A program made the position numbers and the translations under genes. The notes beneath the pieces are model-generated. The model saw nothing but the letters and a program-made list of their open reading frames with translations, did no database searches and had not been told where the DNA came from. Source: Larus michahellis (Eukaryota; Chordata; Aves; Charadriiformes; Laridae). From it: DNA of 64,000 bases. Below, in pieces: positions 10,620-57,515 of this stretch (its first letter is position 1; every line of letters starts with the position of its first letter). The DNA lies in the NCBI RefSeq assembly GCF_964199755.1, contig NC_133930.1, positions 30,929,071 to 30,993,070 on the forward strand. Reading direction: 5' to 3'.

Positions 10620-10688
10620 GTTCTGTCTACATCATGGAAAAGTCTTTGCTTTTGTATACATTTTTATTCTACTGGCATTTCCTAAATG
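10620..10688 (+). CDS. CD274: CD274 signal-peptide exon
   Basis: An acceptor (TCTTTTTAG at 10611-10619) is followed by 14 untranslated bases, the start codon at 10634 and 18 codons plus one base. The start was chosen because the peptide MEKSLLLYTFLFYWHFLN is a typical signal sequence and its last residues match the human signal end. The upstream in-frame ATG at 10532 lies before the acceptor, so it would be intronic. Donor ATG|GTAAGA at 10689. Confidence 0.93.
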
Positions 10689-13600
10689 GTAAGAAGCTGA
10701 GTTGTAAGAAGCGGTAGAACTGTTTGTTTCCTTTCAATGTATAAGCACAGAAATGTTAATTCCTGTTTTCATTCAGTGCTAGCGTTTGGGGTTTTTTCCC
10801 TTAGTGCTTTAAATAAAAAGGTCTTAGCTTTCACACTAAACTAGATATGCGTGCTTTGATGTGGGGCCAGGTTAAAATCCCTGTCAGTGTTTCAGCACAG
10901 ACACCGTTTCAGACAAGGTACCATTTGTATTGTGCAAAAAGTTTCATTGGGGCTGTCAAACCTGGGAATTGTCATGTATTCTTTAACATTGTCTGCAAAA
11001 ACTGTTGACATTTTTATAAACAGAACTTCCCCATCCAAGGCACTAACAATTGCCTGTTACCATGGCAGTGTTCTGAAAGCAGCAGCTGAGGGGCCGTGCA
11101 CACACATTCGCCTATTTTTAGGACAGCGTCACACTGCGTATGTGCACAAAGCAGGTGTCTGCAGGTATAAATAGCCCAGTTTGTCCCAAACTTGGGCAAG
11201 TGCATGCAAAAATGTTTAACTTTTCTGAACAGGGCAGATAGATAGATACTTTTGGTCCTTAAACATCCCATGTATATGGTAAGACATGACTTCGAAGATT
11301 AGGCTTATAATTGGAATTATATTATATTTTCTTCCAAATTTTGTTTTTCAGCTTTGTTCACGGTTGAAGCTCCCCAGACACTCTACACTGTGGAACATGG
11401 GAACAACGTGACCATGGAATGCACATTTCCAGTGAATGGGAAATTAAAGTTTAGAGATTTAAGTGTCAGCTGGGAAAAGAAAGATGAGTTAAAGAAGCAG
11501 GTTTATGTGCTTCTCAAAGGAAAGGAAGACTTCAAAAGCCAGCACAGTGACTTTAGGGGAAGAATAAAATTGTTGAAAGAGAATCTGAACTTGGGACAGT
11601 CTCTCCTTCAGATCACTGATGTGAGGCTCAGAGATGCAGGGTTTTACCGCTGCCTTATTGGCTATGGGGGAGCCGACTACAAGACGATCAATCTGAAAGT
11701 TAAGGGTGAGTGTGCTACTGCAGGAGGTTCAGTGCTATCTGATACTGTTAAAAGATTTCAGAGAAGCCCCTGTAGCGAGCTATGTCTGGGCTAGCATTTA
11801 AAGAAACCTCTCCACAGACAGGAGCCACCTCATGGACCTTGCATGGCTGTATAACTTTATGTTTCTGTCTAGGTTGAATCCATGTTCTGTCCTTTATTTC
11901 CCATAATGACATATGAGAAATGGTGTTGCAAAACCATTTAGACAGGACAAAGACCAGAAAGCTAACGCAGTTTTCTAAGTAGCGTGAAAATTGTAATAAA
12001 TCCTGTACCTCCAGTTACTATGGAGAGACACCATAGCAATATTTATTTTCCCTGTCGAGAGCATGTTTTACAAAATCCAAGCTGATGTACAGAAACTTGA
12101 CACAGGGGTTGGGGATAAAGAAAAGGTGTCTTGCTAATATATGCTCTTCTTCTAGCTTCCTATTAGTGATAATTTTCTTCCGTTTGTTTAGCTCCTTATA
12201 GAACTATAACCCAAGGAGTGGTGAGCATAGGAGACAACAATTGGAAGTTGACGTGTCAGTCAGAAGGATACCCACAAGCTGAAGTGATATGGCAAAACAG
12301 AGAATATGAAGATTTGACTGATAAGGCAAACACAAGTTATGAAACTGGAAGTGACCAGCTATATCGTGTGACAAGTACCCTTACAATCAAAAGCAGGGCT
12401 GATGAGGTTTTTTACTGTACATTCTGGAATAAAGAGCTGCAAGAAAATACATCTGCCATTTTACGCATAGCAGGTAACATTTCTAAATTTCACTTATGGT
12501 AACACACTTCAAGGTACTATGTCATTTTGTTCCAGTTGAATCAGCCACGATTTGTTTCTCTTTCCTATCTAATTTTGAAACGGCTAAAAAGAAATACCTG
12601 CGCGGTTAAGTTTCGCTATTAGCGTGTGCTTCCACCCTACTAACTTGTTCATCACGCATGTGTGGACAGAATTCAAGGATAGTAATTTTGCATGACCTAC
12701 AGTTAAGTGAAAATTGAGTCTGAGGGTTAAAAAAAGTTCCATTATTCGAAAAGCGTATAGCTCGGAGCCTAGGAAGGAAACCCTCCCATATAAATTAGAC
12801 ACACCTTCCAAGAATGTTCTGTTTTGCTGATGATAACTGTCAAATAAATTTGAAGAATATGGTCTTCTCCTGCCACTACAGCCTTTGCTTTGAGCATATT
12901 TAAATTTAACAAATCATACACAGATTGTTTTTCTCATAAAGTCTGGACTGAAGGAAGATGCGTGAATGGCGAAGACTAATACAATTTCTCATTGGACCTT
13001 TTAACTGGGCACCACCTCTACGCCTTTTGCTTTTGGTTACTCTTTTAATTTCTGGGTTGCACTGAGATATGTTTGCACAAGCTTTCAACCAGACTGGGGA
13101 CCTGATCCAACTCGAAAATAATATTTCTGTTTATCAGGCAGTTACTTGGTCAGGTCATTCCCCTGGTCCTGTTCACCATGCAGTTTTAAAAATGCCTCTG
13201 CTGGCACACTTTCTGGGACTGACAAGGGGTGGAAACAGGCAGCTGGGAGTGAGAAAGCCAAGTCATCCTTTCAACGAGTGGTGACCGGGCAAGTTTGGTT
13301 TTAACGAGAAGTGCCTCTGGGATTCAAGGAGGTCACTCACCCTTTGCATTCAGAGCTTTTCCAGATGAAAGGGACTCTCTTCTCTTTCTCAATCAGCTCC
13401 TTCCTGTAGTCCTGACGGGAAAGGAATCTAGATGTCACACTTTGTACCCTGGTGACAAGCAGGATTTGTGACTGGAATCAAAGGCACTATCGCATGGAAT
13501 GCAGGAAGCAAAGATAAATATGAATGAAATATGAATCATAGAATCGCCTAGGTTGGAAGGGACCTGTATGTTCTATCTTTTTTTTCCCCCCTTTATTGGG

Positions 13601-16600
13601 ATAATGAGATACGGTAAAGAGCACCATCAGCACCTGACCTTAGGCAAAATCTAAAATGCTGTTATCATGTCTGAACTGCTGATAGCAGAAATAACACGAT
13701 GCAAATGAAAGGAAAAGGGAGAAGCTTAAGCAATTATGTAATGTCTTTCCCCACCCACTTGTTTTTCTCGAAGATTCAGCTGATGGTGTTCTGTGGACTG
13801 AGAGCAGACGCTTTGTTGGAGCAATTCTCATTGTGACTGCTTTGTTTGGATCTGTGCTTCTATGTATGCTCTGCATAAAAAAAGGTATTCAAATTATTTA
13901 TTTCAGTGTATCATCTCAGTTACGATCAGTCTGTTCTGTTAATTCATCCTCACAGAGGTGGAATGAGATAATAAAAGTCTGCCTTAGACCTTTCATCCTG
14001 AAACCACTAAATTTTTTGCCCCATTGTTTATTTCTTTTTCTTTCTCCAACTTAGTTAAATACTATCAAGTTAGCAGAATGGAACAGGTTGTCAGCTCCCC
14101 ACAAACCAGTTACCAAGCATCTCTATTAATTTTTCTTATAGGTAGTGATGTAGAGCAGTAAGATTAGTGTCGAGTCTATTCAAACATCAAAGCATAGCTT
14201 ATGCACCCACTGCAAATTCAACTGTCCTATTCTGTGTCCTCCCTTTTGATCGGGAACCAGAATGTTAGGAGCAGACAGGACACAAGAGGGTTTTTAGAGT
14301 TTTTTTTCCTGCATTTGCTGAAAAATTTCACTGAACTGTGACAGCATGTTTTTTTAAGTGATCTAATTGTTATGAATTCTACATGTATTTTTATTCTGGT
14401 TAAAACACCATAAGAACGGTGGATTACATATAAAATGATATGGTTTTGAGTCTGAAAGACTCCCCTGTGGCTTCATACCACTTGATTCATTTCCTTTTTA
14501 AGTTTTGAGCTTTTTCAGTTCACTTCAATGACTTGAACTGGACATTTTCAGCATCACATTATGCTGAAGAGCTAAAGCGTTGGTGGTAATTTGTTTTCAC
14601 TTGCTAACCAAAGAAAAAACTTAGAGAAATTTTTAGGTTATCTAAGGATGAAAAGAATACAGTTTGCCCTCAAATTAAAGCAAAAATGTTTGAAATGTGT
14701 TGCTTAACTTGAAATAAGTACTGTTACTTTTTTTTCTTTGGTTGGTTGGTTGTATTTTTTTTTCCCTTGTAGTGAAGGTAAGTGTGTTTGAGGATTCTAT
14801 ATTCAGAAATTCTATATTCAGGATTCTATATTTTCTCTCTCTCTCTCTCTCTCATATATATTCTCTATTCAGAATCTATATATAGGTTCTATATTCTATA
14901 TTCACTCTTCATTTTAACAGATACAATAAAGTCATGTAGATCTCAGAACATCCATAGGAGTCATTAGAAAATGTTGAAAGGAAAAGTGTTTTTGCTGAAC
15001 ATTCTAGTTTTGGCCAGAAGCCTTCCTCTGTATAACAAATTTGTGTGGTTTTTTAGCTGATGCATAGTTACTTCTTGTTTTCCAAATAACTTTTTGAGTT
15101 TTTGGGGGGTCAAGTTGTCTGCAGAGAAAAAGTACAGGAGGCATTGAAGCTGATACAGCTTTATCATATTATACTGGTATGACTCTGTAAATTATTACCA
15201 GAAATGCTCCCAAAACCTCAACATGATAGTGGACTAAATGCACCTGTCAAAATTCTTGAATTTGATAGGAGGTGTAAATGTGCGTAGCTAACATGAAACT
15301 CATCCGGAACTAATGCAAAGGCTAGTTGTACTGTCTTTCCAAGTGGTATCTCAAAAGCTTCCACGCTAAGAGAGATGTACTTTCGGAGGGGGTATAGCAG
15401 AACTGTTGGTTTTCCTGTCTCCCAGCTCTCTTTTCCTCAGTGAAAACCAGAAACAGCCCTAATTTCTGCCTGGAAATTACATCTATAAGCAAATTCTATA
15501 CTGAGCATTCATGTTCAAGTTCCACAAAATAAATACAAGATAGAACTAAATGTGGATTTTCAGTGTTTTGGTCACAAATGCATCTCCTGGATTACAGGAG
15601 CTTAACAGGCTTGCAGGTGATGCTAGCAGACTGCAGAAGGCAGGGTTAGGGTAGATAATGCTGCATGTGTGAGAATATACTTGTCCTAAGAACGTGATAG
15701 GAATAGGAGCAGAACATGAAAGTGGAAGAAGGGACAGCAAACTCCTTGACTTCTCAAAAGATTCCCTTCTGGGGATTTCAGTGAAGGTCAGAAGTTTCCT
15801 GGGTTGCTTGAGTAATATTTATTGTTTGTGTTTATACATGATAATGTATATACATGTCACAATGTATGTGATTTTCATGATTATGTTATTTATATATGTG
15901 TGAGTGTAATAAACTACAAGTTGATTCAGAAGCTAAAGTAGTAGCAACAAGTTTTTCCTTCACAACACAAGCTGCCCTACGTGACCAGACAAGTGATTCT
16001 TTCAGAATGGAACCTTTCTGGAATATGGGCTTTTTTCCCCTCAAAAAGCATCAAGAAGGTGATCCCCTTCTTGTTCCCTGTTGCCCAATATATTCAAATT
16101 CTAGGTGAAAATATACAATGGAAAACCATTTGAACAAGTATTTTTCAGTGATATTAGTGTATAGTATCGATGGAGTTCTGACTTAGAAGTGAGGAAAGGA
16201 AATTGGAAAGGAAACTGACAGACTGGGAGCACTGAAGAATATATTTTAAAGTCTTTGAAGAAATTGAGTGTTTTGAGAACCAATGATTACACTGTGCTAA
16301 GTGTGCCTTTACCACCACTGTGCTTAAGCACCCATTAGATCTCAAGTATTTTGTTTTCTTTTTGATTTTTCTCTCTTGTTTTCTTTCAGCTAGAGCAAAT
16401 AAGAACAACAGAACACCTGTGGCTAGTTCATCAATAGCAAGTACGTACATACGGCATAAATCTAGCTCTGTGTGATTCTTGTGGAAATAATTGCTCGAGA
16501 GTTTACTTTGTAATGGTGACAAGAAAATGCAGATTTACATCCAACTTTCGTTTTGCTTTCTACTTTTCACTTATGCAACAACTATAAATTACAATCAAAG

Positions 16601-18488
16601 AGTAATTTTTCATTACTGTGTCACCTTCTTGAAAGGAAAACATGGAAGAAAAAGCATACTTGTTCCAGGAGCACGTCCAGAAAAGAACAGAGTGGTGTGC
16701 TGTGTTTTGGAAAGTCTGTGATAGGATGGGACATGCTCCCTGGAACACCTGCCTCAGGGTGGCAGCACACGGTGGTGTGAGGCTCTGTGCTGCAATTTGA
16801 GCCATGCTGGCATGATCCTGTGTTTTCCCTGATATGATAGTGTGCATTTGAGGGTCTTTGTCACAACATTGAGGACAGACGGTTTGGCCCTGTTGAGAGA
16901 AACACGGGAAGAAGCTTTAACGTCCCTAACAGTTTCTGTTTCCTCCTGTTGAGATAGTTGATGCTATTTGCTATGAGCAAATCTCAGTGAATGGCCGGTA
17001 CCACCATGACAGTCAGAAATGGAGGAAAGAGTGGAGAGAGTTAATATTTACTGTGTGAGAGAAGAGATTAAAATCCTTTAGTCATGATGGCTCATGGCTG
17101 GGTTTATTTTGGTTTTGTGTTTTTGTTTTTTAATTTGTTGTGGGGTTTTCTTTGGACACCACTTCAAATTAAACTGCTGCCTGAAAGTTAGTTCATACCG
17201 GCAGTTGGGGTTTTTCCTATGAAAACCTCTCTTGAGAATAATTACCCCAAATGGACAAAACATTTGGTTTTAATCTCTTCTCCTGATCTGCATTTAAGTC
17301 ACGTTGTTCCTGGATGGCCTGAGATAGCAGCTTTTAGCAAAGATTTATCGCTATATGAAAAGTTTAAGCTATGCTGACTGTTATCTGTATGTATGTCGTT
17401 TTTTTAAAGAGTTGTCAAAAGATAAGGACACACATGACTGCAAAGATGCTGCTTTTGAAGACGAAGAGCTGAAATGTAAGTATAAATGATAAAGGGAATA
17501 ATAGTAGCAAATTGCACACAGCATCAATCATTTGTGGTCATCCGAGCCTTGATTCACGGCTGGTTTATTTAGTCCCTTGTTTCAACAGACAGAGCCTTCA
17601 AGAGAAGTGGAGCCTCCCGTTCTCTGTCTTACAAACTCACCATCATAACTCATTGTGTACTGGAAGTTATATCAAATAATTAATCTGGTTTTAAACATGA
17701 AAATAAAAGCCATGCTAAGGAAAATGGGATGTGGAGATACATAACAACCCAAATTAGTATTTTCCTTAGCTCACACTTCTGCTACAGAAAGAGTTGTGCA
17801 AGCACAACTGAAGGAGTGGGATGGCAATAGGTAGAGAGACCTTAACCCATCAGGGCCACTCAAGCAACTCTCAAGCCGTGAGATTCTGTCTCAGCAAAGC
17901 AAGAAAATAAATGACCTAATCTCTGTAGGCTCTGAAACATACTGTGGTATGGAACAGGAGGGTGAATTTTTTCTTTCATGTTCTCGCTGACTTCTGAAGC
18001 ACTACATCAATTACATCCCGAATCCCTCCCTGCTACACTTTACTGGTATAAACATAAACAAAGGTAAGCCTGCTGGTCTTGCAGGTATAGATCTCCCAGT
18101 TAAAAAGTCAGGGCCTGGGGATACGCTGCTAGGGATGCCAACAGATAGAGCACTGAATGTATCTGAAAGACTTTAAAAGAAGATTTTAAAAGAATGGGGG
18201 ACCTAAGCCACAGCAATTTCACCGTACTTGCTAAAGAGCACTTCCCACCTGTGTGTTTGAACTACCACTTTATTTCCTCCCATGATGATCTTCTTTTTCC
18301 ATTTGACCTTTTAATTAATTTCATTTCAGATCTTTAATTTTGACAATGAAGGAAATTTTTTGGGTACCTCCAAACTCTAGGAAAGAGTCCCAAAGCCATT
18401 AAATGTTCTGTGACATCATCATTTTGTAATCTGATATTTTTTTCATATAATTCTTTCTTTTACAGATATGCAAATTGAGAAGACCTAG
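10634..18488 (+). CDS. CD274: CD274 (PD-L1), complete coding region, 7 coding exons
   Basis: Programmed death-ligand 1, a type I membrane protein that binds PD-1 on T cells and dampens their response. Coding exons: 10634-10688, 11352-11705, 12192-12473, 13774-13884, 16390-16440, 17410-17475, 18466-18488, giving 313 residues (human 290). Every junction is GT-AG and phase 1. Order: signal peptide 1-18, IgV 19-136, IgC 137-230, transmembrane helix about 244-265, then a tail of about 48 residues. The signal end (YWHFLNA) and the G-strand (YGGADYK) closely match human PD-L1 as I recall it. Predicted disulfides are C42-C119 and C158-C212; N-glycosylation sites N37, N183, N222. The tail keeps a DTH triplet shared with mammals, then extends further and contains an ITIM-shaped LKYMQI. 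Upstream is a CpG-island promoter; PDCD1LG2, a paralogue, is downstream. Exon ends were inferred from splice signals and phase, without transcript data. Confidence 0.96.
11352..11705 (+). CDS. CD274: CD274 IgV-domain exon (PD-1-binding domain)
   Basis: The exon encodes residues 19-136, one V-set Ig domain. Landmarks are C42 (M-E-C), W59 (V-S-W-E), R89, the D-A-G-F-Y-R-C motif ending at C119 and the G-strand GGADYK at 124-129. N37-V-T is a glycosylation site. The acceptor is TTTGTTTTTCAG; the donor is AAG|GGTGAG, read as G|GT at 11706-11707 to keep phase 1. Aligned from memory, the human PD-1-contact residues A121 and Y123 are kept (A126, Y128), M115 is leucine, R125 is threonine, and Y56 falls on serine 58. 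Confidence 0.95.
12192..12473 (+). CDS. CD274: CD274 IgC-domain exon
   Basis: The exon encodes residues 137-230, one C-set Ig domain. It starts A-P-Y-R and has C158 (L-T-C-Q-S-E-G-Y-P), W170, and C212 in F-Y-C-T-F-W-N. Glycosylation sites N183-T-S and N222-T-S. Acceptor TTGTTTAG; donor GCAG|GTAACA at 12474. The same core (CQSEG.P.AEV.WQN and FWNKEL) recurs in the PDCD1LG2 IgC exon. Confidence 0.95.
13532..13567 (-). mobile_element. CR1 LINE 3'-end remnant
   Basis: GAATCATAGAATCGCCTAGG plus TTGGAAGGGACC matches the reverse complement of the CR1 3' tail. Only about 36 bases remain, in the CD274 intron before the transmembrane exon. Confidence 0.8.
13774..13884 (+). CDS. CD274: CD274 stalk and transmembrane exon
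   Basis: The exon encodes residues 231-267: a short acidic stalk, R-R at 242-243, a hydrophobic helix about 244-265, and K-K at the cytoplasmic side. Acceptor TTTCTCGAAG; donor AAAAAG|GTATTC at 13885. The exon is 111 bases, phase 1 at both ends. Confidence 0.93.
14790..14911. repeat. TTCTATATTCAG-type and CT microsatellite cluster
   Basis: Several degenerate copies of ATTCTATATTCAG flank an uninterrupted CT run (about 14833-14853) and a short TA run. The cluster lies in the CD274 intron after the transmembrane exon. Confidence 0.85.
16390..16440 (+). CDS. CD274: CD274 cytoplasmic exon 1
   Basis: Encodes residues 268-284, basic then Ser/Thr-rich (ARANKNNRTPVASSSIA). Acceptor TTTTCTTTCAG, donor GCAA|GTACGT at 16441. 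It is 51 bases, phase 1 at both ends, so skipping it would keep the frame. Confidence 0.88.
17410..17475 (+). CDS. CD274: CD274 cytoplasmic exon 2
   Basis: Encodes residues 285-306, highly charged: it starts K-L-S-K-D-K-D-T-H, then an acidic run ending E-D-E-E-L-K. The D-T-H echoes the end of the mammalian tail. The acceptor TTTTTTAAAG is weaker than the others; using the next AG, two bases on, would put a stop in frame. Donor AAAT|GTAAGT at 17476. Confidence 0.85.
18466..18488 (+). CDS. CD274: CD274 terminal coding exon (YMQIEKT-stop)
   Basis: After TTTCTTTTACAG the exon completes a tyrosine codon split as T|AT and encodes YMQIEKT followed by TAG at 18486-18488. The junction with the preceding exon creates L305-K-Y-M-Q-I310. 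Mammalian PD-L1 as I recall it ends soon after its DTH motif and has no equivalent tyrosine. Confidence 0.85.
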
Positions 18489-18713
18489 AGAAAGCATGGG
18501 AAGCTTTTTTTCCTCTGCGGTGAAGTTTTGACAGCTCAGATGTTCTGTGTTCTGTCTGTTAAGGGGGATATTAAGTTTTTGTTTTTGTTGTGTGATGGCA
18601 ATCTTCTTCCATATCACGTTAAGTCAGGAAAAACTGCAATGAAGTTAATAGAATTATTATTCCATAAAAAGTCCTTGGATTCAGGCTTCTGTACATGTGA
18701 CTAGGTTTGGAGG

Positions 18714-19476: not shown

Positions 19477-19482
19477 AATAAA
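19477..19482 (+). terminator. CD274: CD274 polyadenylation signal
   Basis: Canonical AATAAA, the first after the stop codon, with GT-rich sequence 15-40 bases downstream. Confidence 0.7.
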
Positions 19483-19843
19483 ATATGTTTTGTTTTTCTT
19501 GTGTTTTTTCCGTGTCTGTCTGACTTGTCAATAAGCAGTGTTAGCACTGCTTGTGTTTTTTCTGGGAAATTCAGGTGTCTAAGATTTGGGTACAGAACAG
19601 TGTCTATGCCCATGTTATCCCTCTAATGGCTCCCACAAAGAAGAGACAGAGGAGATCTGGAATCTCACTGGACTGAGAGTTTGGTTTTCTTTCAGTTTAA
19701 AACAAATGAGTCTGTTGTGCAGTCCTAAGGATGTGAATGCAGCCCTCATCCAAAGGCTTCGATCTAGCTAATGTAAAGTTGTGTTTAATACATCTCGGAA
19801 AGCTACCCTATATACTAGGACAGAGAAATGTGTTTCATAACCA

Positions 19844-29936: not shown

Positions 29937-32900
29937 GTGAGAGAGAAACTGCCTTTCAATTCCACCAGCAGAACCAATGCAGAGACCGCTACGCCCTCAG
30001 CACATGGGCTTCAGCATCTCCAGCGACACTTGGATGAATAGCCAGTGATGTCTTGAGGCTCTGCGTTACAGAACGCACTGTGTACTAATTGAGTGCAGGA
30101 CAGATGTCCATTGCTTTCCACAACTGGGCTTCTTTAAAGCATGCTGTATGGACAGGCATAGCTGTGAGAGGGAGGATGACCAAACCCACCTAAGGCAACT
30201 GTAAATTAAACAACCTCAGTGTGAGGCCGAGTGAGGTAAAACCACGTGTATTTATTCCCCTGTCCGTGCCTGTAGCGGGAGCAGCTTGGCTGAAGCCCAA
30301 AAGGGGCTTGGCACGTCTTCATATTATTTTTACCCTCACTACAGTTGTATTAAAGTGAATAAACAAACATTGCTAAGAGGAATTGAAGCTTTCCCTCTAA
30401 GTATTTCACAAACAGTTGCATGAACTTCTCTTTTGAATGTTACTATCAATATTTCCAAGTGCTTTTGAAATAAGTCTACCAATATAGGGTACATCCAATA
30501 TAGAAAGTAGTAACAAGGTATATTGAATGATGTATCATAAATAACTCTCCTTTATCAGTACACTTTAAAATGGTAAAATATTCATAAAAATATGAATTTC
30601 AGATTTTCTGAGTGGCTAAGAAGATTATTTTTATATACTTTCTGTAATACTGTTGCATATATCTGAGAAGACACATAGCATCAAATGATACTCACATGGC
30701 CCCAGGCTTATGGAACTCTAATTGCTACATAGCAATTCTTCCAAGTTACACATGCTTATCCAGTTTCACAGGAGTTACACTGGATTTTCTCTTTGTAAAG
30801 GATAACGAAATTAGGTATACTACTTTCAAAATTAACTGTTTCCTTACTAGAATCCTAGGACATATAAGATACAATCATAGTTTCACAGAAGTTCTCCCTG
30901 TGTAATCACTTACTCAGCCTTAAGTTATTTCTAAAATGTGAAAATTGCTCATTTTGTCCTTGTCTTTCAGACTTTGTAATCAATACAGAACACAGATGAT
31001 TTGCTATAAATACTACTGACATGGTAAAAATATTAGTCTGAACAGGGACAAAAAAAGGCTTAAAACTTTTAGTCAAACCAGTAACCATATGCTTGACTAC
31101 ATGACACCGTTTTGCCCAAGTTTAAAGAAAATCAGAACATATTTGAATAGAACAAACGAAACTGTTTTCTTTTCCTGCTCTAGCTTTGTTTACAGTTGAA
31201 GTTCCTCAACAGCTGTATGTTGTGGAGTATGGGAGCAACGTGACCATGGAATGCAGATTCCCCGTGAACGGCTCATTAAACCTAGGACTCCTGACTGTTG
31301 TTTGGGAGCAAAAAAAGCAGGGCCAGCCGAAATCAAAAGAGGTGTACACACTCCACAATGGGAAGGCGTTTGCTCCATCCCAACATCACGATTACAGAGG
31401 AAGAGCAGCACTTCTGCACAGCGAACTGAAATTTGGACGAGCTATCCTTCAGATCACCGGCGTGAAGATCATAGATGCAGGATCATACCTTTGTGTCATT
31501 GACTACCATGGCGTGGACTACAAGTACATTACTTTGGAAGTAAAAGGTTAGTGGCTGAATTGAATGGAAGTATATAGTCATCGAGAGGCCCCTACTAAAT
31601 TCCTACAGGTTTGTAGAAATGGATTAATTTGGAGGAATTTGTTGCTAATTCTCTCACCAAAAGCCTGTGCTCAGGCCCCAGGGGAACCGAAGCAGTTGTC
31701 TTAGTGCTGGCTAGTCTTTAGTTCAATGGTCAGCTGAGCTTCTCTAGAAGCAGCTCGTGCCCTAGAGGAGGAGTGACTGCCTCCTCGTTCATCCCTCCCC
31801 CTTCTTCCCGCACCCTCTTCTCCAGTCGCCCTACACCCTGCCTCTAATTTGACACCCTGCCCTGTTAGGCCGCCTCTGGCCATTCCCAGAAGTCTCTCAG
31901 AGGGGCCTTAATTTACTTACGAGCCCTGCTGCAGCTACCCAAGTGGCTGGGAATTCCCCAAGTGACTGCAGCTCCCAGAGCACGGACGTGTGATTTTCAG
32001 TTTGTCAAAGCCAAATGGACATTAGTAATAAAGGCGCATGTTACTGGATAGCACGATAGACCAGTCCTTTGAAAAGACTCTGGTGTTTCCCACTAACTGC
32101 CGTATGTCTGTGTGATACAAGGCAGCATTCATTTCCCACCCAGGCATTTAAATAACAAGCTTTGCCATGCGCAAAAATGCATACAGCCATTTTTAGGACC
32201 CACATTGCTTCCTCTGAACTATCTTCAGAGAAATTCTAAGTTCATTTTGTTCTAATAAGATGAAAATACCGCACTTGTCTGCAAGCTATGGTAAAACAAA
32301 CATTAAAACCAGCCTTTAAATGGCATATTCAAAAAGTGAAAATAGAGTCCCAAGAGATTTCACTCGTTTCCTCTGTATTGATAAATTATAAATTGTCAAC
32401 TGCTGCCCTGTATAAAGTAGTGATCTAAGTTCTGTGACTGTAGGCATGAGAAGGATTGAATAACAAATATTGAATTGTTCTACAAAACATCCTTCATCAT
32501 TTCAAATAAGTACCACAGATACCACCACAGAAAAAATAAAGGGAAGGGGGTAAAGTGAAGTGGGAAAATTACTATTGTTGCATAAAGTAATTTCACTCTA
32601 CTACTTCTTATGCAGCACCTTACAGGAGGATAAACACTCAAGTAACGAGAAAACCAGGTGAAGACAAGTTTGTTTTTATGTGCCAGTCAGAAGGCTTTCC
32701 TCTGGCAGAGGTTTTCTGGCAAAATGAGAAGAAGTTCAATCTCAGCGGATCTGCAAATACCACCTATATGCTGACTGCAGATGGCCTCTACAATGTCACC
32801 AGCATCCTGACGTTCAAACCGAATATGAGTGAGAACTACAGCTGTGTGTTCTGGAATAAAGAACTGAATGGAGAAACTTCAGCTCACATTTCCACTTCAG

Positions 32901-35900
32901 GTTCGTATCACCTTGAACTTGTATGAGACAGAGAGTGTTCGAACATACATCGTGTCCTAGGAGCCAACACTGGAATTTGGTTCTAGAAAAGAGTGTAATA
33001 TTGATGCTCTGGAAAAAAAAACAAGTCAGTATTATTTACGTCTTTGAAGCCTCAGCTAGCTCACAGTCCAACAAGCCAGCCTGTCATTTTTCAGTATATT
33101 TTAATTTTAGGGTAGCTCCCATTATTTGATAGCCAGGACAGAGGGAATTCTTTAATCTGCATGGGTGTCTTCCCTGACCTAGACTCCTAATTAATTGTTC
33201 TTCAGATATGATACAGATGAACTGCAGTAGTGCTCACTCAAGTGCCATAGAAATAAGAGATTTGATTCATTTATTGTAAAGCTTCTTATAGTAATATTGC
33301 AGAAAAAAGTATTCATAAAATGAGTGTAAAACACTACGTTGATAAATTTTAAGAATCTTTTGCTCAGCCAGAGCAAGACTTTGGAAAATCAGAACTGATA
33401 ACTTCATAAATGATGCCTGTTTTGTAAATTATAAATTTACTTCCTTTTCATGTTTTTGACAGCTTTAATAAGTACACAGTATAGCGGACAAAAATCCCTG
33501 ATCTTATTTATCGTCCCCATGTGTGTGATGGTAGCTGTCCTTTCCTCTGCACTAATATACTTTCAAAAGAGAAAATCATGCAAGAATGGGCAACCCAAAA
33601 AAGGTACATTTTACTTCAGATAGTGGATCTTTTAACTTATTTTTTATTTTCCCTGTGAATGGTCTTTTGGAAATTTTAGTAAGTCTAGGCATGCTTGTGT
33701 GAATTTGGTCCTATTTAATTTCTAGATGCGCCCTGTTCTAAAATGAATCTTGGATCATTTGAGTTAGGTTCTATTTTCCTCGCCTTGCTACTTACCTGAG
33801 ACAAGGTATACAGGAAGATATTTTTTAATCTGACCAGCTACTATTCTGTAAAGAACATAAACAAGCTTTGGCTTGGGTAAGATGGGCTGTAAAAACATAG
33901 TCTGAATGGTGTTTTTATTCATGGCTACAAAGACATTGTAGCTACAGCATATGATACAGAACTTTTATTTTTGACATTAAGGCTGTATAGCTGAAACAGT
34001 ATGCTGTACAGAACTACTATGAATAGTGTTTCTTCCCTTGTTTGCAGGTGCAACAGTGGAAAAGTAATAAAGCAAAGAAGCTATTATTCTAGTCTTTTCT
34101 TGAATATGAATAGACTCCAATAAACTCAGACAAACGTACTTACTGTCGTGAAATGAAAGTCTTGCTGTTATGGACTTCAGAATTTGGTTAAAAATTTGTA
34201 GAGAAGTTTATGTATTTGGTATGAGTTAATAATAAACCTAAAAGTGCTTAAAGCTCAGATTAATCTAAAAGTTTGTTGAATTGTATTTTTTCTTTCAAGT
34301 CTAGAAATGTTTAAGCTAAATTTTTATGTATCTACTTTAACAGACGGGAAAAGAAAACTGAAGCCTAACCTGAAAGATGAGAAGAGTAAGTCATAGGGTT
34401 TTTTATTTTTGTGCTTAAGGCTTTTTCTTCTTACAGCTAAAACCTTTATAAATCTGTAGATGGCAATTTAAATAATGTTACATCATAATAGAGGCTACTT
34501 TTGCATTTAAATACAACTTTTCTTCAGTTTTCTGAAAATGCAGTATCTAAGGTTATGACTTTCTCACAGGCGATGTAAAAATTTATAAATGTTTGCTCCC
34601 TTTCGCTGAGGTACAGATAGCTTGCATAGATAGCTCGGTATATACCTCTGTATACTCAGTGCAGTTCTAGTAGCCTCAGCTGAGTAGGATACACACAGAA
34701 AGCTGGTTGTTTTGTAAGGCATCAAGATTTTTGTGGTAACAGTCTGTTATACTTCTGACTTAGGCCACAGGTCTTAACAACAAATAATGACACCTCTTTT
34801 ATCTGGAATATTAGATCATCTGCTGAGCCACTTCTCATCTTATGAGTATGTGACTTTCCTAGAAATCTAGGAATTTTTACACTGGAGAGGGAAGGTAATG
34901 CCTAAGAAAGTATCAGGATGCATATAACTGTCCTGTACTAAAATTGAACTGAAAAAAGAAACCGCCGTAGAAAACTAAAAAGCAATATGATAAGAAAGAT
35001 CTTAAAATACCTACTTATATAAATCAGCTTTGTTACGTACAAATAAGTCTGAAAGGTTAACATATTGTCAGGAGGAAGGCTGTGGCCAATGTTAGGAACA
35101 GCGGTATTGGGTTCAGCTGTCCAAGCAGCTCCTGACACAGCCTATTGAGGCCAGACCTGAGGCTGCCTAATGTGTTCCAGGAATATGAATGATTCTCTCC
35201 CAAGGAGCAAAATCGAAGCAAAACTGCAATGCAGCTGACCAAGCGGCCTGAAGAAACTATATGTAGCAGTTTCTGGACACGTAGGGAGTTTGGGCTTTTC
35301 CGAGGACACAATTTACCTGAGAAGCCACCCGTGTTTCTCACCGCTAAAAAAAAAATACACAAAGAAGTCACCACCTTGAAAAATGACTTCTGTAGGTGAA
35401 ATGAAAACTAGGGATTGGATGGAGGGGGTATGAATTCACTGATTCTCATATAACCTCAGCTTGCATCTTAACCATATCTGTCCAATCCACTGCCATCAGT
35501 AGATATTACAGTCAAAATGACACTTTCAAAAAAAACACTCTCACCTTTCAGAAATTGGCACTTGCTGGAGTCAAAGGCCCTTTCTTACTTTTCACATGAT
35601 GGTGTGAAACTTCAGTGGAATTATGCCCTGTGCAAATGAACAAAAGCTCAATGCAAGCGTCAATCTGGGGGACAGCGTTGGTGCGTGTCCAGGCGTAATC
35701 CCAGTGCAGGTTGTCTGAGCACAGCATGTCTTCCCATGGCTTTTTGTATTACTGTTGTAGAATTTTCCACTTTGTAGGCCCCAGCCTCCTCTGTGCACTT
35801 ACTGAAATGAAGAAATTGAAGGAGAGGTTGCTGCTTTCTGTGGTTTTGTTTTACTTCTTCATTTTAATGACCGAAAATCTTTATGCAACATGCAGTAAGT

Positions 35901-36612
35901 CATATGACAAACATGTATATTTCTCAGCATCACATATTTTTAAAAAACACTGGAAAGAACCTTTTTTCCATGATGAGTAGGTAGTTGAAACATAAAAGCC
36001 ACAGATACTTTACCAGAGAGCCTTGGAAATGACCCACATGGCCCCGGTTACAGGAACAAGGATTGTTCGTGTTATCATTTTAACTTACAGCTCAAGCTGT
36101 ATCAGCACTGAAGATGTAGGACATTTGACCTCATCACTGAAGTCCCAGTTCTGCAAACTTTTATTCAGACGCACAGATTTTACTGACAAGCATTCCCGTG
36201 GATGCTATCTAACCAGATTTCAGTTTTGTTATTTCATTTATATGTCTGATAGTCAGTGATAGCTTTGACATAATAGAAAATACAGAATTTGGACCACAGG
36301 TAAAACAGAGAGAGAAATTTCTTCCCTTTGAAAAGATTGCAACACGATGTCTTTGTAATTAATGGCAGCTTTAAGGAGCCATTGTAACTTCAGCATGGCC
36401 CAGAAAAGCTTGCATACAATGAAGACAGAGATTTCACTCTTTACCATTCAATTGTTAAAATCAGGATATTTATTTGCTTAAATTATTGCCGCTTTAAAAA
36501 ATAATGCTATTCCATTTTCTTTCTTTAAGGAGACGATTTTAACTCTCAAACTGAGGCTTTATACTTGTCAACTATCACGGCTTCGAGAGACAGCGGGAGT
36601 GTGGGTCTGTAA
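29882..36612 (+). CDS. PDCD1LG2: PDCD1LG2 (PD-L2), coding region with alternative tails
   Basis: Programmed death-ligand 2, a second PD-1 ligand and tandem paralogue of CD274. Shared coding exons: 29882-29936, 31184-31546, 32616-32900, 33463-33603. They give signal peptide 1-18, IgV 19-139, IgC 140-234 and transmembrane segment about 246-268; all introns are phase 1. Two endings fit the phase. Exon 34048-34067 gives a short tail and 287 residues. Exons 34344-34385 and 36530-36612 give a longer tail and 322 residues; the first of these starts with an aspartate and is Lys/Arg-rich like the human tail exon, so it is probably the ancestral path. Disulfides C42-C122 and C162-C216. Many glycosylation sequons: N37, N47, N181, N187, N199, N209, N213. 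The IgV ends YHGVDYKYI, lacking the tryptophan of the human G-strand. Gene identity is firm; the choice of tail needs transcripts. Confidence 0.93.
31184..31546 (+). CDS. PDCD1LG2: PDCD1LG2 IgV-domain exon
   Basis: Encodes residues 19-139. It begins ALFTVEVPQQLYVVEYGSNV, nearly the same as the CD274 exon start, with C42, W59, R92, the D-A-G-S-Y-L-C motif ending at C122 and the G-strand HGVDYKY at 127-133. Human PD-L2 has an extra residue here and a tryptophan (W110, mature family numbering) that contacts PD-1; both are missing. Acceptor CTGCTCTAG, donor AAAAG|GTTAGT at 31547. Confidence 0.94.
32616..32900 (+). CDS. PDCD1LG2: PDCD1LG2 IgC-domain exon
   Basis: Encodes residues 140-234, a C-set domain with C162 (F-M-C-Q-S-E-G-F-P), W174 and C216 in Y-S-C-V-F-W-N. 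Five sequons (N181, N187, N199, N209, N213) make it heavily glycosylated. Acceptor TTCTTATGCAG; donor TTCAG|GTTCGT at 32901 is non-optimal but keeps phase 1. Confidence 0.94.
33463..33603 (+). CDS. PDCD1LG2: PDCD1LG2 transmembrane exon
   Basis: Encodes residues 235-281: a short stalk, a hydrophobic helix about 246-268 with a proline at 253, then a basic stretch (QKRKSCKNGQPKK). Acceptor TTTTTGACAG, donor AAAAAG|GTACAT at 33604. Confidence 0.9.
34048..34067 (+). CDS. PDCD1LG2: PDCD1LG2 alternative short terminal exon
   Basis: A strong acceptor (CCTTGTTTGCAG) leads to six codons, GATVEK, and TAA at 34065-34067. Two polyadenylation signals follow closely (34119-34124 and 34231-34236), so a complete short 3' UTR is available. 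It would give a 287-residue protein with a tail of about 19 residues. If it is not used, the transcript continues to 34344. Confidence 0.6.
34119..34236 (+). terminator. PDCD1LG2: Two polyadenylation signals for short PDCD1LG2
   Basis: AATAAA occurs at 34119-34124 and again at 34231-34236, 50 and 160 bases after the short-form stop codon. Confidence 0.55.
34344..34385 (+). CDS. PDCD1LG2: PDCD1LG2 cytoplasmic exon of the long form
   Basis: Acceptor CTACTTTAACAG, then 14 codons DGKRKLKPNLKDEK and donor GAAGA|GTAAGT at 34386. It is phase 1 at both ends and starts with an aspartate and a basic run, as the human PD-L2 tail exon does. If the donor is not used, reading continues as S-K-S and stops at 34394-34396, a third possible ending. 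Confidence 0.65.
35778..35894 (+). CDS. Orphan signal-peptide-like exon (speculative)
   Basis: After TTTTCCACTTTGTAG at 35763-35777, 29 untranslated bases lead to an ATG at 35807 and 29 codons that read as a signal peptide: a basic start (KKLKER), a hydrophobic core (LLLSVVLFYFFILM) and a polar end (TENLYATC). The run stops at a perfect donor A|GTAAGT at 35895, phase 1, like the signal exons of immunoglobulin-superfamily genes. Joined to 36530 it would encode only 56 residues. It may be a remnant of a lost B7-like gene, an alternative PDCD1LG2 exon, a small secreted protein, or chance. Confidence 0.25.
36530..36612 (+). CDS. PDCD1LG2: PDCD1LG2 putative terminal exon of the long form
   Basis: A pyrimidine-rich acceptor (TTTTCTTTCTTTAAG) is followed by 27 codons in the frame set by the 34344-34385 exon, ending with TAA at 36610-36612. 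The product is Ser/Thr-rich with one tyrosine in A-L-Y-L-S-T-I. AATAAA signals follow at 36960, 37137 and 37708. The exon also fits the phase of the orphan exon at 35778-35894. Confidence 0.5.
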
Positions 36613-56306: not shown

Positions 56307-57010
56307 TACGTGAATAAAAGCACCTGGGCAGCCTTGGAAAGAAGATTAAGGCACAGGCCTTGGCTGAGATATAACCCAGCAGGAAAAAAAAATGACTTTT
56401 TTTTTTTTTTCAGATGAATCAGATTCTTGATGCAACTCATCACTTGGGAGAAATGTTTGTGCCAGCACCTGGCAGAAGCTTGACACCAAACCCATGACGA
56501 TACACACGCAGTGCATGAGCAACTGTTCCCTGCACCTGCGCTCACCTTGTCTGCAAAACACAGCCTTAATGGCAATGTCCATGCTGGTGACTCACAGGTC
56601 TTCCTCAGACAGACTTGTCTTCGTCGCCTACAGCGGCCCACCGTGGCATCCCTCCGCCACTTCATCAACCTCTTCGTGTCCTAAGCCGCAGGCGGGGTGC
56701 CAGAGGGACCTACTTTGTGCAAAGGCTCCGACACCACCAAACCCCGACGCAGGCCGGGCCCTCGCGGCGCTCTGAGTCCCCAGCAGCCCAACCGGCGCCC
56801 TTGCGCGCCTGCGCAGACCCCCCCGCGCATGCCTCGCCCCGAACCTTGACACGGAGGTTCTCGGGGCGGGAACCTCGGACGCCTCTGACGTCACTTCCAC
56901 GAGGCCCCCGCCGCCCTGGCCAATAGGCGCCTCCGTGCCTGGCCCCGCCCCGCCCCCGCCCCGCCCTCCGCCGCGGGGCTCAGACGCCGTCGAGGGCGGG
57001 GAGGAGGGAG

Positions 57011-57157
57011 ATGGCGGCGGCGGCCTCAGTGGCGACGACGAGGACGGCGGTGGCGGCAGCAGCAGAGACACGGAGAGCGGGCGGGCGAGGCACCCGCAGG
57101 AGACAGGAGCCGCTGCTGCAGCAGGAGCAGCTCCCGTGGGCCCGGTCGGAGCAGTGA
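57011..57157 (+). CDS. Upstream ORF in RIC1 leader, 48 codons
   Basis: ATG in GGGAGATGG (purine at -3 and G at +4, a strong start context) opens a 48-codon Ala/Arg-rich frame ending with TGA at 57155. It would be translated before RIC1 if the transcript starts upstream of 57011; otherwise the ATG is only part of a YY1-like initiator. No domain recognised. Confidence 0.35.
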   Translation: MAAAASVATTRTAVAAAAETRRAGGRGTRRRQEPLLQQEQLPWARSEQ

Positions 57158-57389
57158 CCGGCCACCTCCCCCGCCGCCGCCTCCTCCTCCTTCAGGCCGC
57201 GGCCCGCTTTGGCTCTCTCCCCTCCCGGGACTCGCTTCCTCCGCTCCTGCCCTCGGTGTCTCCGGCGCTCCCCGCGTTCCTCCCCCCTACACGAGAGCAG
57301 CGGCGGCGGTTGGGGGCGACGGGCCCCATCGGCGGGGAGACCTGGGCCGCCCCGCTGAGTCGAGGGGTCCCGTCGCTTTGCTGGTGATT

Positions 57390-57515
57390 ATGCATGGTTG
57401 GCTCCGGGCCGGTGGTCAGAGCCCGTCGTGCGGAAGCCGTCGAGCGGACAGCGAGCCCTCCTGCGTCTCCCCTTCGGCTGATGTCCCCGCCGTGCCCCCT
57501 CATAGGCTAGAGTAG
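57390..57515 (+). CDS. Overlapping upstream ORFs in RIC1 leader
   Basis: Two ATGs four bases apart (57390 and 57394, in TTATGCATGG) open different frames of 41 and 38 codons that stop at 57513-57515 and 57508-57510. Both end about 50 bases before the RIC1 start. The second has a G at +4. They may reduce RIC1 translation. Confidence 0.35.

Follow-up and report, generated by a model that had tools for sequence, protein, structure and literature searches.

Does bird PD-L1 end in a tyrosine signal, and what would such a signal do? The question arises from a window of 64,000 nt (the whole stretch of DNA analysed) from Larus michahellis, in which a sequence-only reading had joined two exons of a PD-L1 gene into a tail with an immunoreceptor tyrosine-based inhibitory motif (ITIM). 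The function of the mammalian PD-L1 tail is debated, and the human tail has no tyrosine. A tyrosine-tailed PD-L1, if birds make it, would be a natural gain or retention with which ligand signalling or sorting could be tested; if exon 8, which completes the motif, is unused, the finding is ordinary. Judged from the DNA and a published chicken cloning primer, the 3′ end of bird PD-L1 is probably composite and offers a choice of C-terminus, CKYK or YMQIEKT, and the tyrosine signal of the spliced form is a lead, not yet a fact.

Gene identity and exon map

Gene models were built by enumerating the GT and AG options within 6 bases of every boundary, which gave eight open models of 309–315 residues. 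In a whole-protein search of the PDB, the assembled 313-residue protein matched human PD-L1 (35tl_A) with 226.5 bits (E 4.9e-66), and the top PD-L2 chain scored 117.9 bits. Pfam identified V-set and C-type Ig domains. Published chicken PD-L1 primers align to exons of the gene; of the 27 bases of the forward cloning primer, 22 agree with the sequence at 10631, at the signal-peptide exon. The gene at 10634–18488 is thus, by sequence, an ordinary PD-L1 (CD274) gene encoding an IgV-IgC-transmembrane protein closest to PD-L1, as the sequence-only reading had proposed. A query restricted to the transmembrane region and tail returned nothing from the PDB up to E 5.

All exons lie on the plus strand. 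The signal-peptide exon (10634–10688, beginning MEKSLLLYTFLFYWHFLN) is followed by the IgV exon (11352–11705; V-set), the IgC exon (12192–12473; Pfam), both with human PD-L1 matches, and the stalk and transmembrane exon (13774–13884, ending AILIVTALFGSVLLCMLCIKK), whose hydrophobic stretch was identified by reading rather than by a membrane predictor. Two short tail exons, each in phase 1 at both ends, come next: exon 6 (16390–16440, 51 nt, ARANKNNRTPVASSSIA) and exon 7 (17410–17475, 66 nt, KLSKDKDTHDCKDAAFEDEELK), the latter with donor GTAAGTAT. The coding part of exon 8 (18466–18488) holds the rest of Y307, MQIEKT and TAG. A predicted 3′ UTR extends from 18489 to an approximate end at 19500.

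A protein search of the same genome with PD-L1 gave nine matches, with 47 of 47 candidates scored. Four lie in this gene and two in a second B7 gene; the remaining three, one on C27 and two on C13, are distant (30–31% identity). A retrocopy or W-linked copy was considered as proof of splicing and dropped, as no spliced PD-L1 copy was among the nine.

The second B7 gene (31159–32899) lies downstream on the same strand. It scores best against PD-L1 chains (162 bits), with 137 bits against PD-L2 chains. In the known gene order PD-L2 adjoins PD-L1 on one strand, and the gene is taken as PD-L2, mainly by position. An NxS site was rejected as proof, since NxS/T sites occur in both IgC exons; IgC residues specific to PD-L2 are given in the accessible part of PMC12151841. 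Two possible 3′ exons follow its transmembrane exon (33463–33603). One, at 34048, would end GATVEK, with an AATAAA at 34231 (rank 5 of 53 by the poly(A) ranking used below); the alternative, at 34344–34385 (DGKRKLKPNLKDEK), has a GTAAGT donor. Both ligands may have alternative C-termini. A further candidate at 36530–36612, after ctttctttaag, is in the phase of 34344–34385 and could be the last exon of this gene (RDDFNSQTEALYLSTITASRDSGSVGL, then stop); it holds one tyrosine and no ITIM match by eye. Farther along, long open frames run through 56600–57500 on either strand; their residues are rich in P, R, G and A, so this is probably a CpG-island promoter of the next gene, which could be RIC1 by human gene order.

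Two candidate C-termini

Joining 17475 to 18466 gives the 313-residue PD-L1 with L305-K306-Y307-M308-Q309-I310 and the Y307 codon split T|AT, as had been claimed. All eight open models share this ending (...EDEELKYMQIEKT, then stop), with the exon 8-type C-terminus ..DTHDCKDAAFEDEELKYMQIEKT common to all. The boundaries read tttttttaaag|AG at the exon 7 acceptor, AAAT|GTAAGTAT at its donor and ttctttcttttacag|AT at the start of exon 8, where the TAG occupies 18486–18488. Donors and acceptors were scored with simple matrices and ranked within the window on the plus strand only. The 17475 donor outscores 99.4% of the 3643 GTs and the 18466 acceptor 99.1% of the 4492 AGs; no rival acceptor within 17500–18700 comes within 1.5 bits of the latter. 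As AAT|GTAAGTAT, the donor agrees with the U1 complement in 9 of its 11 positions, completely from +1 to +8; ten of the 3643 GTs, this one included, have nine such matches. A candidate branch-point A sits 32 nt upstream of the acceptor, and the AATAAA at 19477 ranks first for downstream GU/U content among the 53 plus-strand AATAAA in the window. By sequence, a last intron between 17475 and 18466, with a last exon after it, is thus credible.

The model is weakened because a competing donor-like site in the same intron, AAG|GTAAGC at 18063–18068 (last exon base 18063), scores above the 17475 donor (6.9 vs 5.0 bits) and because the acceptor of exon 7 reaches no more than the 89th percentile, a weak score. 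The 18063 donor could replace that at 17475; a splice from it following the read-through stop would fall within the 3′ UTR. It had also been proposed that splicing of one small exon switches the motif on or off. Exon 7 can indeed be skipped in frame, giving ...SSIANMQIEKT with the tyrosine gone, but the switch that has some support lies in whether the exon 7 donor is used. Other birds may not conserve exon 8. Beyond its TAG another 71 codons follow in frame before a stop (18489–18701), a weak hint at an older, longer tail. That this is the remnant of a longer exon 8 like that of fish was considered and rejected: 43 of 2000 dinucleotide shuffles reach at least 72 codons, and Pfam gave only a sub-threshold hit (E 0.12) to an unrelated family.

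If the 17475 donor is unused, the protein would end ..EDEELKCKYK at 310 residues, with CKYK and the TGA at 17487–17489 read from 17476–17489, and without an ITIM. This read-through end is a second plausible PD-L1 C-terminus that the sequence-only reading had missed. The available text of PMC3447683 describes amplification and cloning of the chicken PD-L1 ORF with reverse primer PDL1-R-SalI. The complement of this primer, its tail removed, aligns ungapped on 17458–17486 (25 of 29 bases), so the primer passes the 17475 donor unspliced into the predicted intron. It encodes ..DAELKCKHK; we infer the stop of this chicken ending. The primer is the sole transcript evidence found, and it carries the read-through form, which lacks the motif; neither the spliced form as main product nor a conserved tyrosine is supported. 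In the same text the chicken clone reduced IFN-gamma mRNA in PD-1-rich Lee1 cells, so the read-through end is compatible with ligand function.

The weight of the primer depends on its origin. The chicken qPCR primers cite XM424811 in the accessible part of PMC3447683, a predicted-type record by its prefix, and the cloning primer was probably also based on it. The PCR could have picked up a minor intron-retained RNA. The intronic AATAAA pair (17702 and 17906; 17702–17911) was tried as support for read-through and counts against it: their weak downstream elements rank 41 and 28 of 53, so read-through may be mere intron retention. Donor position +6 is T in this genome and C in the chicken primer sequence; pairing with U1 is weaker with the C, and species may accordingly differ in how much of each form they make. 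A later paper, in the portion available (PMC6930881), gives a chicken PD-L1 ORF of 315 aa and reports that PD-1 bound COS cells expressing full-length chicken PD-L1. This length was tried and rejected as a means of choosing the end: the chicken primer starts MM, and without indels the spliced form would have 314 residues and the read-through form 311.

Proposed function of the tyrosine end and competing readings

LKYMQI (305–310) fits the ITIM pattern [SIVL]xYxx[ILV] in the spliced model only, and YMQI (307–310) fits the YxxΦ pattern Y-x-x-[LIMFV]; both fits had been noted before and stand. In tails of the same length, the ITIM pattern arises by chance in 2.2% of tail shuffles and 6.6% of random tails, and YxxΦ in 15.6% and 27.9%. 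The ITIM match exceeds chance weakly, and at these rates the motif alone weighs little; conservation decides. The whole protein has two ITIM-pattern and nine YxxΦ matches, the second of the former at residue 6, inside the N-terminal hydrophobic stretch. Y307 stands 43 residues past the transmembrane end, at the boundary that we set, and acidic EDEE precedes LKYMQI. Caution in calling such motifs is advised by their occurrence, in ITIM-like form, in ectodomains of other checkpoint molecules (excerpts of PMC5413580). No ITIM in bird PD-L1 was reported in the passages of open-licence literature searched, and string searches for the junction and for either C-terminus retrieved only an unrelated yeast paper. 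Scans of public contigs for bird contamination gave four pattern matches in viral and 15 in prokaryote contigs, among which tblastn identified no relative.

The reading we favour, at a probability of roughly 0.4, makes exon 7 a composite terminal exon that can be processed in two ways. It holds that both ends are produced and that the spliced form is sorted through YxxΦ and AP-2. Read through, exon 7 would give four further residues and end ..ELKCKYK, as in the chicken cloning primer. Spliced from 17475 to 18466, it would end ..ELKYMQIEKT and gain one tyrosine, in YMQI. If made, YMQI would most likely be a YxxΦ sorting signal bound by AP-2, leading to faster uptake of PD-L1 from the surface, and its phosphorylation would block reading by AP-2. 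The sequences of the two ends, the splice-site quality and the passage of the chicken primer across the donor are observations; production of both forms here, the use of AP-2 and any switching we infer. If the spliced form is made, endocytic sorting is likelier than SHP signalling, because YMQI needs no phosphorylation, because CTLA-4 offers a precedent that includes chicken, and because LKYMQI fits SHP-2 only in part. Counting against the sorting reading are the low information content of YxxΦ and the distance of Y307 from the membrane. Constitutive internalisation is reported for mammalian PD-L1 in the available text of PMC12794375; as human PD-L1 has no such tyrosine, no tyrosine signal is needed for uptake.

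It had been suggested that the motif lets bird PD-L1 signal in reverse through SHP phosphatases. Under that reading birds would make mainly spliced PD-L1, and on binding of the ligand a dimer with phosphorylated Y307 would recruit SHP-1 or SHP-2 and inhibit the bearing cell. The pattern fit and the EDEE before the motif speak for it, as do the preferences of the SHP-2 N-SH2 domain listed in the accessible part of PMC12151841, which LKYMQI fits at −2, +2 and +3; the same text describes the sites with which SHP-1 and SHP-2 bind ITIM/ITSM as well conserved. However, Lys at −1 and Met at +1 fall outside these preferences, the L at −2 is absent from the C-SH2 list of that text (T/V/I/y), and no aromatic residue follows at +4 or +5. 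The motif is single, its pattern arises by chance at the rates given, and it is missing from the end encoded by the chicken clone primer. Phosphatase recruitment is thereby left unsupported, and we regard reverse inhibition as improbable. The earlier interpretation as a whole is partly supported, with the function of the motif unproven.

In human PD-L1, exon 7 is the last coding exon. Bird PD-L1 could be the same, with read-through as the main form, the 17475 donor rarely used, the tyrosine end noise and the 18063 donor perhaps splicing the 3′ UTR. The chicken ORF primer and clone (PMC3447683, as far as available), the C for T at the chicken +6 position and the stronger donor at 18063 are consistent with this. 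Yet few GTs of the window match U1 as well as the 17475 donor, which faces a strong acceptor; the poly(A) signals within the intron are weak; and 18063 lies 574 bases past the read-through stop, where a splice would be expected to elicit nonsense-mediated decay; we find this reading doubtful. Splicing to exon 8 could instead be constitutive, the chicken read-through end being an artefact of annotation and PCR and the motif having no special role. The splice-site scores and the distal poly(A) signal agree with constitutive splicing, as does the length of 315 residues given for chicken (PMC6930881, text available in part), which is near the 313 predicted here for the spliced form, a matter of length alone. 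But 315 residues can be assigned to neither end, and in the accessible chicken text cloning with a primer that reaches into the intron yielded a product that was expressed. Constitutive splicing, too, appears unlikely.

The dilysine ER-retrieval signal KxKxx has K at −5 and −3 and a free cytosolic C-terminus. KCKYK at the read-through end fits it, and chicken KCKHK likewise, with the proviso on its stop given above. By chance, 0.65% of ends would show the KxKxx or KKxx form at background lysine content and 6.7% at the lysine content of this tail. The match is not to be over-read, because the donor consensus in the phase of exon 7 forces the lysine codon AAG and because of the 6.7% chance. It seems very unlikely that in birds the choice of last residues sets the surface level of PD-L1, with the read-through form retained by KxKxx early in the secretory pathway, the spliced form freed of that signal and given a tyrosine for uptake or phosphatase recruitment, and the donor acting as a two-state switch. 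If true, one donor, its sequence also encoding the lysine signal, would form a switch of a kind not known from mammals.

Comparison with known systems

A two-ended bird PD-L1 tail was found undescribed in the literature searched; it would be a variant of known alternative 3′-end processing. If birds make the tyrosine-tailed form, this would bear on the use of chicken PD-L1 clones in studies of Marek's disease, since one clone or more was built with the read-through end.

The human PD-L1 tail belongs to the orthologous gene and has DTH in common with this one. Human PD-L1 chains in the PDB end DTHLEET without a tyrosine (RLRKGRMMDVKKCGIQDTNSKKQSDTHLEET), which bears out what had been said earlier of the human tail. 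The human tail has 31 residues, four of them past DTH, whereas the spliced tail here has 49, with 20 past DTH. The human strings RMMDVKKC, DTNSK and HLEET are all absent from this tail. The same holds for RMLDVEKC, DTSSK and QFEET, named as motifs conserved in mammal PD-L1 tails in the accessible part of PMC12110588. Close to the membrane, the human tail shows little conservation beyond mammals, according to the available text of PMC12151841.

Human soluble PD-L1v4, as described in excerpts of PMC10741404, likewise alters its C-terminus by splicing versus an earlier 3′ end, in its case through an intron 4 poly(A) signal. Its product is soluble, whereas here only the last four or seven residues differ and the anchor is kept. 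In many ray-finned fish PD-L1 has a C-terminal tail extension in exon 8, as does the model here, though exon numbering may differ. The extension of fish is long, with conservation in 9 of 13 species (PMC12151841, portion available), whereas exon 8 here adds seven residues and could be a shortened relative. PD-1 carries ITIM/ITSM motifs of the same [SIVL]xYxx[ILV] pattern as LKYMQI, but it has two conserved motifs with demonstrated SHP-2 binding, according to that portion, and the bird tail has a single predicted motif on the ligand side. The closest likeness to the sorting signal proposed here is YVKM of CTLA-4, a Y-x-x-hydrophobic motif in a checkpoint tail like YMQI. In the accessible text of PMC3614947, YVKM is experimentally proven, the chicken tail included, whereas YMQI is known from sequence and lies far from the membrane.
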